A stretch of DNA of 64,000 nucleotides from Candidatus Saccharimonadota bacterium (lineage in GTDB: Bacteria > Patescibacteriota > Saccharimonadia > Saccharimonadales > Saccharimonadaceae). The DNA lies in contig JAFRCN010000006.1 in assembly GCA_017404335.1 (NCBI GenBank), positions 1 through 64,000 on the forward strand, written 5' to 3'. Shown in pieces: positions 1,212 through 60,385 of this stretch; within the stretch, counting starts at the first letter, position 1, and each line of letters begins with the position of its first letter. A model generated the notes under the pieces. That model was given only the letters and a program-made list of their open reading frames with translations, ran no database searches and was not told the origin of the DNA. Made by a program: the position numbers and the translations under genes.

Positions 1212-3770
1212 TTAATTAGTTTCTTCTTCAGGAAGGACGATACCGAGGGAGGCGACGGTGTCGCCGTCGGACATTTTCATGATACGGACACCTTGCGTCG
1301 CGCGACCGAGAGTCGGGATTTCTTTCATCGCGACGCGGATAGCTTGACCCTTGGTAGACATCATAATAACTTCTTTAGCTAGCGGGTCTAGAGTGTGGAC
1401 CGCGACAATCGGACCGGTTTTTTCGGTTACCGCGGCAACCTTAATGCCGACGCCACCACGCTTATGAGGCGGGAAGTTAGAAACGAGCGTGGCCTTACCG
1501 TAGCCGTTCGCGGAAACCGCAAGAAGTTTTTGTTTCGGGTCGGTGATGACATCCATGCCGACGATTTCGTCTTTTGGACGGAGGCGCATACCACGGACGC
1601 CCATCGCGGAGCGACCCATAGCACGAACTTCTTTCTCGTTAAAGCGAGTAGCCTGGCCGGCGGAAGTAGAGATAACGATATCGTTTTCACCGGTGGTTTC
1701 TTTGACCCATTTCAGTTCGTCTCCAGCGTCTAGCTTGATGGCGATTAGACCATTACTTCTGATATTGAAGAAATCTTTGATGGCGGATTTTTTAATGGTT
1801 CCCTTTTTGGTCGCCATGAAGAGGAAGCCGTTTTCGCCGTTGTCGCCCTGTTTAATAATCGCGGTGATTTTTTCCTCTGGGTGCATATTAAGCATATTGA
1901 CAGCGGCAGTTCCCTTCGCGGCGAGCGAAGCTTGCGGAACTTCGTAAGCTTTCATCCGGAAGAGACGACCTTGATTAGTAAAGAAGAGGAGGAAGTCATG
2001 CGAAGAAGCGGTCATAATCTGAGCGATGACGTCTTCTTCTTTGGTCGTCATGCCGCGTTTGCCCTTACCCCCGCGGTTTTGCTTTCTAAAGTCGGCTTGG
2101 GGGACGCGCTTCATGTAGTTTTCGGAAGTTAAGAGGATGACGCTCTCTTCTTCGGGGATAAGCTCTTCTTCGGAGAATTTACCAACTTCGTGATTAATAA
2201 TCTTGGAACGGCGCGGATCGTCGTATTTTTCTTTAATTGCGATAAGTTCTTCTTTGACAACTCTTAAGATTTCCTGCTCGCTAGCGAGAATGGCCTCGAG
2301 TTTCTTAATCAATTCATGGAGCTGTTTTAATTCTTCTTCAATTTTGTCGCGCTCTAGGCCTTGGAGACGGCGAAGCTGCATCTGTAAGATAGCGTTAGCC
2401 TGAATCTCGGAAAGACCAAATCTCGACATGAGCTGTTTGTCGGCGTCGTCGTAAGAGGCACGGATGACTTTAATCACCTCGTCGATATTATCAAGAGCGA
2501 TTTTCAAACCCTCTAAAATGTGGGCGCGCTCTTTGGCTTTTCTAAGCTCAAATTCAGTCCTTCTTCTGATCACGATTTGGCGATGCTTGACGAATTCACT
2601 GAGAATTTCTTTGAGACCGAGGACGCGAGGCTGGATGCCGTCGACAAGGGCGAGAACGTTATAATGGAAAGTAGTCTGGAGATCGGTAAGTTTATAAAGT
2701 TGGTTCAAAATTTTCTTCGGAAAGGCGTCTTTTTTAAGCTCAATGACGACCCGAGTCTTACCACGCGCGGATTCGTTACGCGCGTCGGCGATATGAGTGA
2801 GCTTTTTATCTTGGGCAAGCTGGACAATCTTAGAAATAAGAGCTTCTTTACTAACCCCGTAAGGCATTTCGGTAATCACTATATTATAACGGCCGTTTTT
2901 GCGTTCTTCGATATTGGCGACACCGCGGATTACGACTGAACCTTTACCGGTAGCATAGGCTTGCTTCATCGGCGCGCCACCGTAGACTTCGGCACCAGTC
3001 GGAAAATCCGGACCTTTGACGTGCTTCATCAAACCTTCTAGGGAGATTTCGGGATCGTCGATTAGCGCAACGGTCGCATCGACTAGCTCGCCAAGGTTAT
3101 GCGGAGGGATATTAGTCGCCATACCAACAGCGATACCCATCTGACCGTTTAAGAGAATATTCGGAACGGCGGCCGGAAGCACGACTGGCTCCTTCTCGGT
3201 GCCATCGAAGTTGTCACGGAAATCAACTGTCTCTTTCTCGATATCGGCGAGAAGCTCGGTGCCGATTTTGTCCATTCTAGCCTCGGTATAACGGGAAGCA
3301 GCTGGCTCATCGCCGTCGGCGGAACCGAAGTTACCTTGACCTTCGACCAAGGTATAGCGCATTTTCCAAGGCTGAGCGAGGTTGACCATCGCGTCATAGA
3401 TAGAGGAATCACCGTGCGGGTGGTATTTACCCATAACTTCACCGACGATACGGGCGGACTTTACGGTTGCGTGCGGAGCTTTCCAGCCGTTTTTATTCAT
3501 GGCATATAATATACGGCGGTTAACTGGCTTTAGGCCGTCGCGGACGTCAGGTAAGGCACGGTCGATAATAACAGACATGGAATACTTTAGGAAGTAGTCT
3601 TCCATGGTGTGCTCGACCGGCTTGAGCTCTAGACCCTCAGAAATACCTTCTTCGGATCCTCCTCGCTCGCGCCCGTCGTCACGGGGCTCGCTCGTCGATT
3701 GCTCCCGTTGTCGCAAATGATCCTCAGAAGGCAATTTCTTCGGGTCTTGGTTCGTGTCATCATTCTCCAT
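1212..3770 (-). CDS. gyrA: DNA gyrase subunit A
   Basis: Breakage-reunion subunit of DNA gyrase, which introduces negative supercoils together with GyrB. The catalytic tyrosine is Y161 in [10 protein letters not shown]. The quinolone-pocket motif [10 protein letters not shown] is at 117-126. The C-terminal beta-pinwheel carries a GyrA-box-like QNRGGKG, which argues for gyrase rather than topoisomerase IV. The 852-residue length is normal, but the N-terminus is ~39 residues longer than in E. coli (Tyr122). Almost all of that excess is residues 9-47, encoded by a palindromic element (family B, 3632-3745). It follows gyrB by 14 nt and is presumably co-transcribed. Confidence 0.97.
3632..3745 (-). 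repeat. palindromic element family B, copy 1, inside gyrA
   Basis: The outer inverted arms (GACCC..AGAAAT..CCTTCT against AGAAGG..AATTTCT..GGGTC) enclose the conserved core CGCCCGTCGTCACGGGGCTC, itself a hairpin. The element is translated in frame as GyrA residues 9-47, including [10 protein letters not shown]. The same core occurs at 19587, 53592, 59556 and 60103. It lies just upstream of the conserved domain, where an extension should be tolerated. Confidence 0.85.
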
Positions 3771-10010: not shown

Positions 10011-10124
10011 CCATTTTTCGCTTTAAAAAGCCGGCAGATTGGTATTTTCTTCTTGCGAAGTGCATCTTAGGGATGAGCGAGCAAGAAAAAATGCCGAGAT
10101 GCCGGCTTTTTATGCGAAAAATGG
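10011..10124 (-). repeat. palindromic element family A, copy 1, downstream of tmRNA
   Basis: Arms CCATTTTTCGC / GCGAAAAATGG flank AAAAAGCCGGCA / TGCCGGCTTTTT, with a conserved centre (CTTGCTCGCTC and CTTCGCAAGAAG). On the minus strand it directly follows the tmRNA, overlaps its CCA end, and finishes in a U-run after the GCCGGC stem. It therefore probably also acts as the tmRNA terminator. A second copy with compensatory stem changes follows tRNA-Gly at 60506-60618. Confidence 0.8.
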
Positions 10125-10476
10125 TGGAGCTGGGGGATACTGCCTCCCCGTCCGGATTGTCACGGGATCATGATTCTACGCGCATAGTTTTCTGTTTTGT
10201 CTTAGCATATATTATCAGCTGCAGAAAACGAAACTGATAAAAGCCGTGGCTAGATTTTCGAATTATTTTTCGCCAGCTAAATAACCTTATTTCCGTGGTA
10301 TAATAATTCGCATTCTACGGAACCTTAAATACGAACCAGCCTACAAATAATTAGGCATAAGCCGGCATGTATGCAACATGCGCGGTTTTCGTGTTTTTAG
10401 CACTTATTTAATACTTACGGTATTCAATCGGCGCGCCTCACAATTGTTAACAACTCGTCTAAGCTTTGTCAGCCCC
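10122..10476 (-). ncRNA. ssrA: transfer-messenger RNA
   Basis: The 5' GGGGCTG (10476 downward) pairs over 7 bp with 3' CAGCTCC, followed by an encoded ACCA ending at 10122. The 3' part has the tmRNA hallmark GGACG before the T-arm. An internal frame starting at GCT (10401) encodes AKNTKTAHVAYMPAYA and stops at TAA (10353-10351). It ends in small hydrophobic residues, as degradation tags do. This RNA rescues stalled ribosomes with SmpB, which is not encoded in the window. The T-stem is GGGGA/TCCCC, but its loop reads GGCAGTA instead of the usual TTCRANN. The length of ~355 nt is normal. Confidence 0.9.
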
Positions 10477-10712: not shown

Positions 10713-10896
10713 CTATGAGGAACTCTACTGTTTTTATTTGCGTTTACGCTTCACGCCGGGAATGTTTTCGCAAAACTCTTAACGAAAAATCGCTCGTCTC
10801 ACGCCGGATGGGGGTCTCGCTCGCGATTTTTCTAACTTTTACGAAAACATTCTCGGGTTTGCTTTATACAAATAAAAACAGTAGAGTTCCTCGTAG
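10713..10896. repeat. palindromic element family C, copy 1
   Basis: A ~180-bp inverted repeat. The outer arms GAGGAACTCTACTGTTTTTA / TAAAAACAGTAGAGTTCCTC are unique to this site. The middle arms GAATGTTTTCG / CGAAAACATTC follow, then a conserved centre with AACGAAAAATCGCTCGTCTC, CACGCCGGATGGGGGT and the returning GCGATTTTT. The centre recurs at 14360-14544 with entirely different but again complementary arms. No gene lies within it; comM begins 85 nt downstream. Confidence 0.85.
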
Positions 10897-13990: not shown

Positions 13991-14000
13991 GATGGGGTCG

Positions 14001-14344
14001 TGAGCCATCATTAAGCCGGGTTCTGTGCCTGGTTTAAAGGATTTATTCAGGCGATAATCATCTATCTAGACGCCATATTGCTACAGCGTTCAAGCGGTGA
14101 GCGTACGTCCTCGAGCAAAGGCTGATAGTACTCCTTGCAACGGGTAGGGTTTGCCGCCACCTCGTATCACTACGAGATGCTGTGAGCTCTTACCTCACTC
14201 TTTTCACCCTTACCGGAAAACCGGCGGTTTGGTTTCTGTGGTACTTTCCCTATTCTTGCGAACGGTCGCCGTTAGCGACTACCCTGCTCTATGTTGCCCG
14301 GACTTTCCTCTTGAGTGATCTCAAGCGATTATCTTTCAGGCTCA
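14001..14344 (-). ncRNA. rnpB: RNase P RNA
   Basis: The catalytic RNA of RNase P, which matures tRNA 5' ends. Minus-strand hallmarks are AGGAAAGTCCGGGC near the 5' end, GGTAAGAGCTCAC in the specificity domain, GGTGGCGGCAAACCC, and ACAGAACCCGGCTTA at the 3' end. P1 is formed by TGAGCC / GGCTCA, which sets the boundaries. TATAAT at 14350-14355 gives the promoter. It is convergent with rpmB. A family C palindrome begins a few bases upstream of the -10 box. Confidence 0.96.
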
Positions 14345-14359
14345 GATACATTATAACAT

Positions 14360-14544
14360 ATTTCTTAATAAATAAGCTATTTTTATCTGTGGCTTCGCTC
14401 ACGTCCGAAATTTTTCATGAATTTCTTAACGAAAAAATCGCTCGTCTCACGCCGGATGGGGGTTCGCGAGACGATTTTTCCTAAAATTCATGAAAAATAT
14501 CGGGTTCGCTCAATACAGATAAAAATAGCTTATTTATTTGAAAT
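14360..14544. repeat. palindromic element family C, copy 2
   Basis: The same centre as copy 1 (AACGAAAAAATCGCTCGTCTC, CACGCCGGATGGGGGT) with different self-complementary arms. These are AATAAATAAGCTATTTTTAT / ATAAAAATAGCTTATTTATT outside and ATTTTTCATGAATTT / AAATTCATGAAAAAT inside. It fills the gap between rimK and rnpB and reaches to ~5 bp from the rnpB -10 box. It therefore supplies the DNA where the -35 region of rnpB must lie. Confidence 0.85.
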
Positions 14545-38659: not shown

Positions 38660-39243
38660 TTCACTCTCCCGACGGGTCCTTTCTCGGCGGGTCCTGCCGG
38701 CGACTCTCCCTCCCCAAAATTTTGCTTCGCAAACATTTTGGGGTCCCCTTCCGTCGCCGTCACCCGCCGATGAGAATCGGATGATTCCGCACCTCGATAT
38801 TTACCTTTCTGTTCTTTTAATATATTTTCAAAATCTTCAAGGGTTTTGAACTCGCGGAAGACTGAAGCGAAGCGGACGTAAGCAACTTCGTTGATTTCGG
38901 CGAGGACGTCGAGGACAGCTTCGCCGATTTGTTTACTCGTTATCTGGTCGGTGCCGTAGGCGTAGAGGATGTCAGAGGCGCGGTTGACGACGTCTTCGAT
39001 TTCGAGCTCGGAATTAAAGAACTTACCGACGCTACGTTTAACGGCGAGGAGAAGTTTATCGCGGTCAAAAATTTCTTTATTACCGCTGCGTTTAGTTACG
39101 GTAAGAGGAGGCATTTCGACTCGCTCATAGGTAGTAAAACGGCGTCCGTCGGCGGATTCGCGCCGGCGACGAATCATCGTCCCATCGACCGTTTCGCGGC
39201 TTTCTAGAACTTTGCTATCTCCGATGCGAAATTTCTGTTCCAT
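38656..39243 (-). CDS. nrdR: NrdR-like ATP-cone regulator lacking zinc cysteines
   Basis: NrdR represses ribonucleotide reductase genes when (d)ATP is bound. The ATP-cone (VTKRSGNKEIFDRDKLLLAV, EVAYVRFASVFREFKTLEDF) is intact and the linker RRRR..RFTTYERVE is recognisable. All four zinc-ribbon cysteines are missing, however: MEQKFRIGDSKV stands where MxCPxC..DTKV is usual, and RRRRESADGRRF replaces RRRRxCxxCxxRF. The protein has no cysteine at all. Residues ~158-195 are encoded by a family D element, making it ~40 residues longer than usual. It is directly downstream of ftsZ. Confidence 0.85.
   Translation of the reverse strand: MEQKFRIGDSKVLESRETVDGTMIRRRRESADGRRFTTYERVEMPPLTVTKRSGNKEIFDRDKLLLAVKRSVGKFFNSELEIEDVVNRASDILYAYGTDQITSKQIGEAVLDVLAEINEVAYVRFASVFREFKTLEDFENILKEQKGKYRGAESSDSHRRVTATEGDPKMFAKQNFGEGESPAGPAEKGPVGRVK
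38670..38770 (-). repeat. palindromic element family D, copy 2, in the 3' end of nrdR
   Basis: TCGGCGGGT / ACCCGCCGA encloses GGCGAC / GTCGCC and an inner hairpin around CCCCAAAATTTTG..CATTTTGGGG. A partial tandem repeat of the left arm (CGACGGGTCCT) lies at 38670-38680. The inner part matches copy 1 at 17705. It is translated as the NrdR tail, including TEGDPKMFAKQNFG. Confidence 0.82.
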
Positions 39244-40422: not shown

Positions 40423-40483
40423 AATAATCCTCGCTTTCTATAGTATCTATTATATACACAAATAATCTTAAAATCAAGTATTT

Positions 40484-40571
40484 TTAGTCGACGGGTCCTG
40501 TCGTCGCCTCCTCCCCCGCTCGGCTCTCGCGGGGGACCCCCTCCGGCGACACCACCCGTCGACGATTAAAA
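40484..40571. repeat. palindromic element family D, copy 3, between ftsA and ftsZ
   Basis: Arms TTTTAGTCGACGGGT / ACCCGTCGACGATTAAAA include the ftsA stop codon. Inside are TCGCC / GGCGA and CCCCCGC / GCGGGGG. The central ~65 bp are identical to copy 4 (43207), while the outermost bases differ in a compensated way. It may terminate ftsA transcription before the separate ftsZ promoter. Confidence 0.82.
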
Positions 40572-43175: not shown

Positions 43176-43206
43176 AATTCTCCTTTATGCCATTATATCA
43201 CATTTG

Positions 43207-43283
43207 GCGGACGGGTCCTGTCGTCGCCTCCTCCCCCGCTCGGCTCTCGCGGGGGACCCCCTCCGGCGACACCACCCGTCCGC
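43207..43283. repeat. palindromic element family D, copy 4, upstream of adk
   Basis: GCGGACGGGT / ACCCGTCCGC surrounds the same centre as copy 3 (CCTCCTCCCCCGCTCGGCTC, GCGGGGGACCCCCTCC). It sits between the rpsU terminator and the adk promoter. Confidence 0.82.
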
Positions 43284-43291
43284 GATATTGA

Positions 43292-53048: not shown

Positions 53049-54034
53049 TTCTTTCCTTTTTTAATTTCAATGGTTTTAATGTTTTCGAACGTGCGGTATT
53101 CACCTTCGGCTTGAAGTTCGACGGTCGAAGGTTTTAGAAATTCTAATTTGTCGCCTTCGGTTTCGGTACCAGGAGTACGGATTAAAATGCTTTTTACCAT
53201 TAGCTTAAAAAGGCGCCAGAAGTTCGTCAGTCGGTCGGTCATACTGCGGAATACTATCGGGTCGTGATAATCTTCGCCACCCTTCATCACGCGACACATG
53301 GATTTACCGCTGACGGCGGCGTAGTCGGAAGTTTTTTTGTGTTGCAGTTTCCCGTTTAGCTTAAAGTCAGGGATGAACTGCTTTTTGTGGCGGTTTTTGA
53401 AATACCATTTAACGAGAGCTAGATACGAGCGCCAGGAGCTTTTATGACCTTTTTGCATGGATTTACGAAATTTCGGCTCGTCGAACAACTCGCAAGCTTC
53501 GGCGGTCATGCCGATTGTCACGTAACACGTTGCATAGCGGAAAAACTTGCCGTCGACATGAATTTCTAATGGAAAAAGTTCCGAAACGCTTGGACAAACA
53601 ACTCTCGACGCGCTTCGCTCGCGCCCGTCGTTACGGGGCTCGCTCGCTCGTTCCCCTCCCCGTTGGTCGGGTATGGTCTCAAGTTGTTTGTCCTGCGCGT
53701 CAATAAACAAATCCTCGAATTTCTTGGCGCCAAGGGTTCTTGCAAGGTCGTTGAAGTTGCCGTAGGGCAAGACCGCGAGAGTGACATCTTTGTTCGAGCG
53801 GAGAATACCGTTCGCGGAGATGCTGGCCGTCGCGTCGCCGCCGGCAGATAGGACAAGGTCGCCGTCTTTGAGAATTTTCGCGAGATTTTTGGCGTTTTCG
53901 TCGACATCAGTCGGCTCGACTTCGTACTTCCCTACCATGTAGCCTTTTAAGTTTTTAGTTTTGTCGAGAACTTCTTTTTTAACATCAAGAAACCGCGAAG
54001 AACGGGGATTATAAACTATAAATAAACGTTTCAT
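53024..54034 (-). CDS. diacylglycerol/lipid kinase family protein with family B insertion
   Basis: 336 residues. DAGK catalytic domain ([31 protein letters not shown] as the GGDGT-like motif, VLPYGNFNDLARTLG) and the beta-sandwich second domain. Residues ~115-148, translated from the palindrome at 53592-53692, lie in the loop between domains. It phosphorylates diacylglycerol or a related lipid. The ATG overlaps the rpoD stop by one base (TAATG). Confidence 0.85.
   Translation of the reverse strand: MKRLFIVYNPRSSRFLDVKKEVLDKTKNLKGYMVGKYEVEPTDVDENAKNLAKILKDGDLVLSAGGDATASISANGILRSNKDVTLAVLPYGNFNDLARTLGAKKFEDLFIDAQDKQLETIPDQRGGERASEPRNDGRERSASRVVCPSVSELFPLEIHVDGKFFRYATCYVTIGMTAEACELFDEPKFRKSMQKGHKSSWRSYLALVKWYFKNRHKKQFIPDFKLNGKLQHKKTSDYAAVSGKSMCRVMKGGEDYHDPIVFRSMTDRLTNFWRLFKLMVKSILIRTPGTETEGDKLEFLKPSTVELQAEGEYRTFENIKTIEIKKGKKCLKVIEI
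53592..53692 (-). repeat. palindromic element family B, copy 5, inside the lipid-kinase gene
   Basis: GGACAAACAACTC / GAGTTGTTTGTCC-like arms (right arm AAGTTGTTTGTCC) hold the core CGCCCGTCGTTACGGGGCTC. It is translated as RASEPRNDGRERSAS in frame. The inner second hairpin is less clear than in copies 2-4. Confidence 0.8.
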
Positions 54035-58574: not shown

Positions 58575-60385
58575 TACATCTCCTCCGGGATTTCGATTCC
58601 TAAGATTTTTAGTCCGTGGGTCATGACGTCGAGGTAGGCTTTGACGAGTTTGAGACGGGCGGATTCTTCAGCGCTTCCGAGGACAGGACAATTTTCGTAA
58701 AATCTACTGAAAGTTTGAGAAAGTTCGTATAAGAAGTTGGCAAGTTTGTGCGGAGCAAGTTCGCTTACCGCCTCGTCTAAGACTGTTTGATATTCTATTA
58801 TTCTTTTGGCCAATTTTTTTTCATATATATTATATATATAATTATCTATATTCTTTTCATTTTTATTCGATAGAATCTTTTTTGCGCGGACGCAGGAGTA
58901 GAGTAGGTACGGGCCGGAGTTGCCGGTCATTTTGACGGATTCTTTCGGGTCGAAAATGATGTCGCCGCCCATTTTGTATTTTAAAAAGGCGTACTTTGTC
59001 GCGGCGAGGGCGACAGTTTCGTCGGTAGAATTATACTCGGATTTTAGTTCGTCGCGGACGAGGTCGAGGACGTCGACGGCTTTTAAGAAATTACCCTTTC
59101 TAGAGGACATTTTAACGTTCCCCGGAAGCTTAACGAGACCATGGGTTAAGTGGGTCGTTTTTTTGACTAAGTCGGGGGCGTATTGCTCGATAGATTTTAG
59201 GACGACTGCCATGTAATCTTTTTGTTCGTTGCCGGTGATAACGACGGATTTGTCGAAATGGTAGTCGGCGTATTTTTGGAAGATGAGGCCGACGTCTTTA
59301 GTTTCATAAGTCGGGACGCCTTCTTTATTGACTAAGACACGGGTATGAAGACCGTATTTTTCGCCGTTAAAGATAATCGCGCCGTCGGAGTATTCGTAGA
59401 TGCCTTTTTCTAATTGCTCTTTGACTTTTTGTAAACCGAGATTAGCAACAGTAGACTCTGGATAAAACTTGTCGAACTTTACACCAATAGAATTATAAAA
59501 TTGATTAAAATAATCATAAGATAATTCCCTGCCTTTCCAATATAATTCTGTAAGGTCGGGGACCGAGAAGGCATCTTTCTCGGAACGCTCCCTCGCGCCC
59601 GTCGTTACGGGGCTCGGTCGCTCCGTATTTTCCCCGTCGGAAAATATGCTCCTCGAAAGAGCTTTCCTCGGTCCCCCGGCTTCATTAATTCGGTAGATTT
59701 CTTTGTTTAACTCCGTGATTTCGGCTTTGGCGGTTTCGTCGGTGTCGTAGAGAGCGGTGCCTTCGATGTAGCACTTCGCGATGTCTTCGATGGTCAGATT
59801 TTCTAGCGATTTATTTTTTAGCGCGTACATGGTCTTCGCGACGTGAAGACCGACATCGCCGCCGAAATTCGCGCGGATAACTTTCGCGCCGGCGTATTCG
59901 TATAAATTAGAAATTGCGTTGCCGACAATACTCGTATATAAATGACCGACATGGAGGACTTTAAAAGGATTCGGGTCGCTGAATTCGCAGATAACTGTCT
60001 TGCCTTTATACTCGTCCGAACTGAAATCGCTAGATAAATTATTAATCTTTTTAGATAAAAAGTCATCAGATAAAGTAAAATTCAGAAAACCAGGAGGCGT
60101 AAGGCTCACGATAGCGCTTTTTCGGAACGCTCCCTCACGCCCGCCGTCGCGGGGTTCGGTCGCTCCGTATTTGGCCCGTCGCCAAATATGCTCCTCAAAA
60201 GCGCTATTCGCGAGCCTTTCGGCGATGGTCATCGGGCTTTTATGTAAATCTTTGGCGAGTTTGAGGGGGGCGTTCGAGGAGTAGTCGGCGGGGATATTCT
60301 CGGGAGAGGGAGTGAGGTCGGGGTCAAAATCGAGACCGTAGAGGTCGTGAATAACTTTTTTAAGACTTTCCCGCAGTTCTTCCAT
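58574..60385 (-). CDS. argS: arginyl-tRNA synthetase carrying two palindromic insertions
   Basis: Class I synthetase. Motifs: HVGHL for HIGH near residue 150, KMSSRKGN for KMSKS, and the DALR anticodon domain at the C-terminus. 603 residues, longer than CPR relatives owing to two family B elements: residues ~57-95 (near the end of the N-terminal add-on domain) and ~236-277 (catalytic domain insert). They are read in different frames (GATEPRDGGREG and RPSPVTTGARER). TATAAT (60392-60397) ends 6 nt before the ATG. It heads an operon with orn. Confidence 0.94.
   Translation of the reverse strand: MEELRESLKKVIHDLYGLDFDPDLTPSPENIPADYSSNAPLKLAKDLHKSPMTIAERLANSAFEEHIWRRAKYGATEPRDGGREGAFRKSAIVSLTPPGFLNFTLSDDFLSKKINNLSSDFSSDEYKGKTVICEFSDPNPFKVLHVGHLYTSIVGNAISNLYEYAGAKVIRANFGGDVGLHVAKTMYALKNKSLENLTIEDIAKCYIEGTALYDTDETAKAEITELNKEIYRINEAGGPRKALSRSIFSDGENTERPSPVTTGARERSEKDAFSVPDLTELYWKGRELSYDYFNQFYNSIGVKFDKFYPESTVANLGLQKVKEQLEKGIYEYSDGAIIFNGEKYGLHTRVLVNKEGVPTYETKDVGLIFQKYADYHFDKSVVITGNEQKDYMAVVLKSIEQYAPDLVKKTTHLTHGLVKLPGNVKMSSRKGNFLKAVDVLDLVRDELKSEYNSTDETVALAATKYAFLKYKMGGDIIFDPKESVKMTGNSGPYLLYSCVRAKKILSNKNEKNIDNYIYNIYEKKLAKRIIEYQTVLDEAVSELAPHKLANFLYELSQTFSRFYENCPVLGSAEESARLKLVKAYLDVMTHGLKILGIEIPEEM
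59556..59678 (-). repeat. palindromic element family B, copy 4, inside argS
   Basis: GGGGACCGAGAAGGCATCTTTCTCGGAACG-like outer arm pairs with GAAAGAGCTTTCCTCGGTCCCC. The core CGCCCGTCGTTACGGGGCTC is followed by TATTTTCC / GGAAAATA. It is translated in a different frame from the other copies (RPSPVTTGARER). Confidence 0.88.
60103..60216 (-). repeat. palindromic element family B, copy 3, inside argS
   Basis: Arms GGCTC..ATAGCGCTTTT / AAAAGCGCTAT..GAGCC hold the core CGCCCGCCGTCGCGGGGTTC and hairpin TATTTGG / CCAAATA. The TTTTCC/GGAAAA pair of copy 4 is replaced by TTTGGC/GCCAAA here, a compensatory change. Confidence 0.88.

Follow-up and report, generated by a model that had tools for sequence, protein, structure and literature searches.

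A genus-wide palindromic repeat family inside argS and other coding genes of Saccharibacteria, with locus-specific outer stems

The window analyzed here comprises bases 1 to 64,000 of contig 4 of a six-contig Saccharibacteria genome totalling 685,718 bases (96.3% complete), and it contains argS, the gene for arginine–tRNA ligase, as a single open frame (TIGR00456, 304.5 bits, above the curated cut-off). Relatives of this ArgS that come from named records belong almost without exception to Candidatus Saccharibacteria; many are of ruminant-gut origin, and Ca. Nanosyncoccus alces is among them. Within argS lie two in-frame copies of one structured repeat, here called family B (families D1/D2 of the repeat search), each with a core flanked by two pairing arms (Table 1). 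The preliminary description, made from sequence alone, had noted that the two copies are translated in different frames from almost the same DNA. The inserts are indeed read in different frames, because their cores begin at different codon positions. The near-identity of the DNA holds for the core (86% identity over 87 nucleotides (nt) between the copies) and fails for the outer arms, which are mutually unrelated. Both inserts are predicted to fold very stably as RNA, at -75.2 kcal/mol (z -6.3) for insert 1 and -70.0 kcal/mol (z -5.8) for insert 2, with none of 200 shuffles as stable in either case.

ArgS must function with both inserts, as that description had held: a second intact argS was looked for and not found in this genome, the remaining few percent of which could hold one. 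An AlphaFold model built from 35 sequences (mean predicted local distance difference test score, pLDDT, 68.5) puts the inserts close to where they had been described. Insert 1 (model residues 65–87) falls between a helix (51–63) and a strand (91–96), inside what we take to be the N-terminal add-on domain, and insert 2 (residues 240–273) between two helices (217–236 and 276–299), downstream of what is presumably the HIGH-type motif. Both stretches have pLDDT below 50, which is not proof of disorder, since other parts of the model, such as residues 329–392, score equally below 50. The best-matching solved ArgRS sequence aligns outside both inserts in the one alignment examined. The open frame and the single gene copy are observed; judged from sequence, the ribosome probably reads through both inserts, giving probably disordered surface loops in an ArgS that would be expressed and active.

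Table 1. Coordinates in the window of argS, its two inserts and the further family-B cores
Feature	Position	Strand	Remarks
argS, arginine–tRNA ligase, 603 residues	58574..60385	-	sole argS found in genome
Core of insert 1, 75 nt, ArgS consensus site 70	60122..60196	-	read as EEHIWRRAKYGATEPRDGGREGAFR; 'copy 3' of the preliminary description; covariance model 111.1 bits
5' arm (argS sense) of insert 1	60197..60220	-	pairs with 60100-60121, 1-nt bulge
3' arm of insert 1	60100..60121	-	reaches conserved PPGF codons
Core of insert 2, 75 nt, ArgS consensus site 219	59580..59654	-	read as SRSIFSDGENTERPSPVTTGARERSE; 'copy 4' of the preliminary description; covariance model 105.2 bits
5' arm (argS sense) of insert 2	59655..59676	-	
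3' arm of insert 2	59558..59579	-	
Family-B core close to gyrA N-terminus	3652..3725	-	
Family-B core close to miaA N-terminus	19609..19683	-	
Family-B core in diacylglycerol/lipid-kinase-like gene	53605..53680	-	

Across the genome, 19 sites match one argS copy at E≤1e-3, and a covariance model gives 20. In each of the 19 copies an outer stem of about 17–30 base pairs encloses a core of 68–80 nt (75 nt in argS), built of two inner hairpins (helices P2 and P3) and containing symmetric GA/GA internal loops. An alignment of all 19 copies with MAFFT and RNAalifold failed to show the outer stem and was replaced by a gap-free alignment of eight same-length copies with a named structure. Eighteen copies lie inside open frames of at least 254 residues, all in phase and free of stops, 16 in sense and two in antisense orientation; no long frame covers the nineteenth (C5_80617). 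The 18 genic copies are spread over 16 host genes: argS and valS (two copies each), leuS, queA, miaA, tRNA-dihydrouridine synthase, trmD, truB, obgE, ychF, gyrA, an rlmD-like rRNA methyltransferase, a TIGR01177 methyltransferase, a P-type ATPase, an aminotransferase that we read from its matches as DegT-like, and a lipid-kinase-like gene. The earlier proposal that any open frame is tolerated needs narrowing: two of the three sense frames are open, the third being stopped in all eight argS-type cores, and the antisense frames are all open in seven of the eight. A scan of the window against Rfam matched no palindromic-element family.

What is conserved in these elements is the folded nucleic acid and not the encoded protein, as the preliminary description had also concluded from the change of frame. 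Besides the differing frames and the existence of antisense copies, the core lacks codon periodicity. At ArgS consensus site 463 (seven species), core substitutions at codon positions 1/2/3 run at 0.10/0.09/0.08 against 0.15/0.08/0.51 in flanking argS; the corresponding values are 0.12/0.17/0.13 against 0.12/0.05/0.44 at site 219 (four species, L053 excluded) and 0.09/0.13/0.17 against 0.15/0.06/0.50 at site 70 (four species, L055 excluded). The 44 named pairs at site 463 are 98.1% paired across the seven species, a figure that falls to 37–48% when partners are slid by one to three columns, and 16 of these pairs have changed on both sides, as compared with 6.8 for shuffled data (none of 500 shuffles as high). 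The eight paralogous copies show the same pattern of paired change. In P2 the variation consists of G-C/C-G and T-A/A-T swaps, with G-U almost absent. Paired change together with the missing codon periodicity indicates that the constraint acts on the folded nucleic acid and that the protein sequence follows.

The family is genus-wide and almost absent outside the genus. It matches in 57 of 60 genomes of the genus at E≤1e-3; in the phylum, a scan that scored only 14 candidates per genome found matches at 1e-4 in four of 286 genomes, namely this genome, two congeners and a distant genome with a weak match (36.8 bits). Among the matches listed outside this genome, 76 of the best 80 copies, which include orthologous sites, lie in frames of at least 200 residues, 59 in sense and 17 in antisense. 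Presence, site, family and orientation differ among close relatives, and empty alleles occur at argS, queA, trmD and obgE. A survey of ArgS in 90 relatives (90 of 110 argS loci, duplicates removed) found that inserts of at least 12 residues fall almost entirely in three loops, at consensus sites 70 (28 alleles), 219–223 (11) and 463 (35), the remainder being upstream read-through or at three other small sites. These loops hold several element types, many with a common P3 hairpin, and comparison of argS among relatives, which the preliminary description had recommended, found inserts in many species at loops that are empty in others. Doubled or nested elements occupy a single ArgS loop in L104, L070, L081 and L117, site 70 of L104 carrying two types in tandem. 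At site 463 of the focal argS (window about 58820–58860), where many relatives hold GC-rich elements, there is an AT-rich near-palindrome coding NYIYNIYE.

The outer stem behaves differently from the core. The left and right arms of one copy pair at a mean of -28.2 kcal/mol, versus a mean of -8.0 for a left arm with the right arms of other copies, and the sole cross-copy combination below -18 kcal/mol is that of obgE and the P-type ATPase, whose arms are identical. Among the 53 of 99 copies with a 73–76-nt argS-type core, 35 pairs from different genes have cores at least 97% identical and a median arm identity of 0.47, as compared with 0.44 for unlike cores. Near-identical cores with near-chance arms mean that core and arms differ in history. 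In 135 distinct elements (143 before removal of duplicates, the argS part being 44 of 79 covariance-model matches and including some other element types), the arms contain 2709 Watson–Crick, 75 G-U and 45 A-C pairs, all mismatches being scored alike. In contrast, 50 acceptor stems of tRNAs encoded in the same sequences contain 321 Watson–Crick, 29 G-U and no A-C pairs (Fisher p 9e-6 versus the element arms).

The stem also extends over sequence native to the host. Among alleles with a P3-type hairpin, the palindrome exceeds the net insertion length in 48 of 52 (six sites), with a median overlap of 50 nt, where local-alignment spans may overrun and 'empty' lengths are medians of short alleles. 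Between L089 and L076 (90.7% identical), for instance, site 463 has gained 66 nt and lost the native loop, and the palindrome measures about 117 nt. In obgE of L198, L199 and L208 the 3' arm consists of the host's LIADL/LLADL codons, in three different codon sets (CTAATCGCTGACTTA, CTTCTTGCCGACTTA and CTAATAGCTGATCTT); opposite it, each genome has a 5' arm that is a near-complement of its own codons. The mismatch types, the palindrome overlying native length and the mirrored obgE codons together favor arm-to-arm copying at the DNA level.

Cores, for their part, change within arms that persist. Five species have orthologous arms at argS site 219, and within them the focal core has the same sequence as the queA core and the P-type ATPase core of its own genome, not that of the orthologous cores. 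In queA, four genomes have common locus-specific arms around cores of different type; the focal queA core (L010, G000:C6:61773-61847) is antisense, and G003 and G055 hold the same core type at the same place in sense. Such swaps likely arise by recombination between copies and by inversion between the arms. Some alleles lack a core: obgE in L217 and queA in L191 retain a short hairpin of arm-like sequence, and obgE in L220 has the left arm only. The two arms-only hairpins may represent a pre-existing hairpin that serves as insertion target, and they look equally like deletion products. Around the insert, the empty alleles diverge so much in both length and sequence that no target-site duplication can be defined.

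On these grounds we favor, with modest confidence, the reading that family B is a genus-specific, selfish, coding-compatible palindromic family of rumen-type Saccharibacteria, akin to the palindromes of Rickettsia, whose stem is re-made from the host flank. We propose that a two-hairpin core of about 75 nt enters loops of essential proteins and that the survivors would be insertions that keep an open frame, through which the ribosome would translate to give an expressed and active protein. The outer stem would then not be inherited as a fixed terminal repeat; it would be re-made repeatedly by copying of one flank to the opposite side, with template switching while the hairpin replicates as the likeliest mechanism. 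Copying of this kind would keep the stem nearly Watson–Crick perfect, let it grow into host codons and make it locus-specific, and cores could be exchanged between copies. More tentatively, and as a possibility that we would not yet call probable, the palindrome may be self-extending: the core would make replication copy host flank across, so that the stem grows and repairs itself and dispensable codons become the antisense of essential ones. If true, this would provide a standing source of new protein loops, mostly in enzymes that act on tRNA and RNA in a single genus of Saccharibacteria.

Several observations weigh against a stem re-made by copying. The tRNA finder behind the acceptor-stem control may itself disfavor A-C pairs, and the pooled excess of G-U over A-C in the element arms leaves some selection on the folded strand possible. 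One subfamily, seen in at least four genomes, has the same arms whether it sits in obgE, a P-type ATPase, a cysteine desulfurase or mnmA. Arms are therefore able to move along with the core, and for this reason local flank as the only source of arms was rejected as a full account. The left arm without a core in obgE of L220 could be a pre-insertion state or a deletion. Template switching alone does not predict the excess of sense insertions (16 of 18 here, 59 of 76 in relatives), because the antisense orientation offers as many or more open frames. Neither a transposition event nor a mobilizing enzyme was seen among the sequences searched.

The four genes with one arm sequence are also the first argument for an alternative that we consider unlikely, in which the mobile unit is the whole palindrome, the arms diverge fast and selection acts only on their pairing, in the folded RNA or single-stranded DNA needed for mobility. 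Covariation in orthologous arms would be expected under such selection, as would the greater folding stability of the element-sense strand over its complement in all 19 focal copies. The same can be said of the mismatches in antisense insertions, which on the element's own strand comprise 14 G-U versus three A-C. In sense insertions, however, A-C pairs (42) are nearly as frequent as G-U (57), and arms that stand near chance between cores at least 97% identical are difficult to reconcile with a travelling palindrome. The native length overlain by the palindrome and the native obgE codons mirrored by an arm also argue against it.

Candidate agents of mobility were examined and set aside. A Y1 (RAYT-type) transposase (PF01797) is not found in this genome and occurs in two of the 60 genomes of the genus, so mobilization by such an enzyme was rejected. 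Reverse transcriptase (PF00078) is present in 40 of the 60; it was rejected as the mobilizing enzyme since none was found in G003, G055 and G036, which hold 19, 17 and 18 elements. The focal genome has four reverse-transcriptase genes (G000:C2:2407-3105, C1:15433-16002, C5:1814-2392 and C5:71565-72149), many for 686 kb. A phage origin was likewise rejected: the P3 hairpin has no exact match in viral contigs, and no phage match was obtained.

The host genes raise a further alternative. Enzymes acting on tRNA host ten of the 18 genic copies in this genome and 41 of the 76 in relatives, the TIGR01177 methyltransferase not being counted in either; as background, such enzymes account for 8.4% of the coding length in the 46 open reading frames of the one 64-kb window. 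The hosts in relatives comprise argS (9), ileS (9), valS (5), queA (3) and 15 copies in dus, truB, miaA, trmD, leuS, mnmA, tsaD, gatA and tgt, next to the TIGR01177 methyltransferase (1), obgE and ychF (7), rRNA modification (6), DNA enzymes and nucleases (12) and others or unidentified (9). The excess is large even against a 20% background (binomial), with p-values that are only indicative and overstate independence because sites are shared by descent; when distinct host-gene clusters are counted instead, tRNA enzymes account for 13 of 33, TIGR01177 left aside. This bias, and the repeated striking of the same genes in different genomes, would suit hairpins that are functional cis-acting elements of the mRNA, for example feedback operators of tRNA-handling enzymes. 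We regard that as improbable, given that close relatives vary in presence, site, family and orientation, with empty alleles in four of these genes, and that the hosts include gyrA, the P-type ATPase and DNA-repair genes. Antisense copies, moreover, would fold differently in mRNA, and the mismatches do not track the mRNA strand: selection on mRNA to keep the stem was rejected because the G-U pairs that predominate on the element strand of antisense insertions would be A-C in the mRNA. The tRNA-enzyme bias lies outside all the explanations offered here.

It is very improbable that the inserts were selected as protein, as useful basic or disordered loops; many species carry them at the same three ArgS loops and their peptides are rich in charged residues and glycine, but one and the same DNA serves in more than one frame and in both orientations, and its core substitutions lack codon periodicity. 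Removal of the element before or during translation, by intron-like excision or ribosome bypass, to leave a protein without the insert is scarcely credible: the long outer stem would juxtapose both ends, but removal would require no open in-phase frame, and all 18 genic copies have one.

Miniature inverted-repeat transposable elements (MITEs) and repetitive extragenic palindromic (REP) elements are short, non-autonomous, palindromic and multi-copy, and the copies of a MITE have common terminal inverted repeats. Family B differs from MITEs in that its outer arms are mostly unrelated between near-identical cores, one subfamily being the exception, and from REP/RAYT systems in the distribution of the Y1 transposase given above. 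Both groups are treated as short palindromic multi-copy elements in an overview (PMC10969869). Literature on Saccharibacteria, Patescibacteria or the candidate phyla radiation with palindromic or repetitive elements yielded no report of this family among the records listed.

The closest likeness is with the Rickettsia palindromic elements (RPEs), described as short palindromic repeats that stand in frame in many unrelated, often essential genes of a reduced host-associated genome and are compatible with protein function (PMC10969869). Family B likewise recurs as a palindromic repeat across many unrelated genes of a single genome (19 copies, 16 host genes), inserted in frame in 18 of 19 focal copies and in 76 of the best 80 listed from relatives. 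The likeness is one of arrangement, and the phylum is another. A conserved encoded peptide is described there for RPEs (PMC10969869), whereas family B uses two sense frames and antisense. RPEs are also reported in a second source to lose repeat identity over time (PMC6649704), whereas the arms of family B stay paired through paired changes. The same text describes perfect inverted repeats inside protein-coding genes of Nematomorpha mitochondria, for which its authors raise template switching as a means of maintenance (PMC6649704). Near-perfect inverted repeats kept within coding genes are common to both systems; in Nematomorpha the arms encode conserved protein regions and a shared core is not described in that text (PMC6649704), whereas family B has a repeated core between its arms and sits mostly in variable loops.

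Rickettsia is the best-known source of such coding palindromes; here they are genus-wide in Saccharibacteria and in essential genes. What is new relative to RPE-like elements is the unusual maintenance of the stem through paired change. Such stems enable comparative genomics to test how a coding palindrome stays near-perfect, as well as the source of new protein loop sequence in reduced genomes, and the tRNA-enzyme bias is a second puzzle alongside stem maintenance.

Two further kinds of repeat were noted in the window. Another palindromic type (D3, D11 and D12) lies at 40483–40566, 43203–43286, 17733–17791 and 38712–38769, and some relatives, L070 and L104 among them, have a type resembling it at ArgS site 219. 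A 31-nt sequence is present, 100% identical, at 10785–10815 and 14433–14463, upstream of the genes for tmRNA (10122–10476, minus strand) and RNase P RNA (13997–14344, minus strand), and may be a shared promoter or regulatory element.
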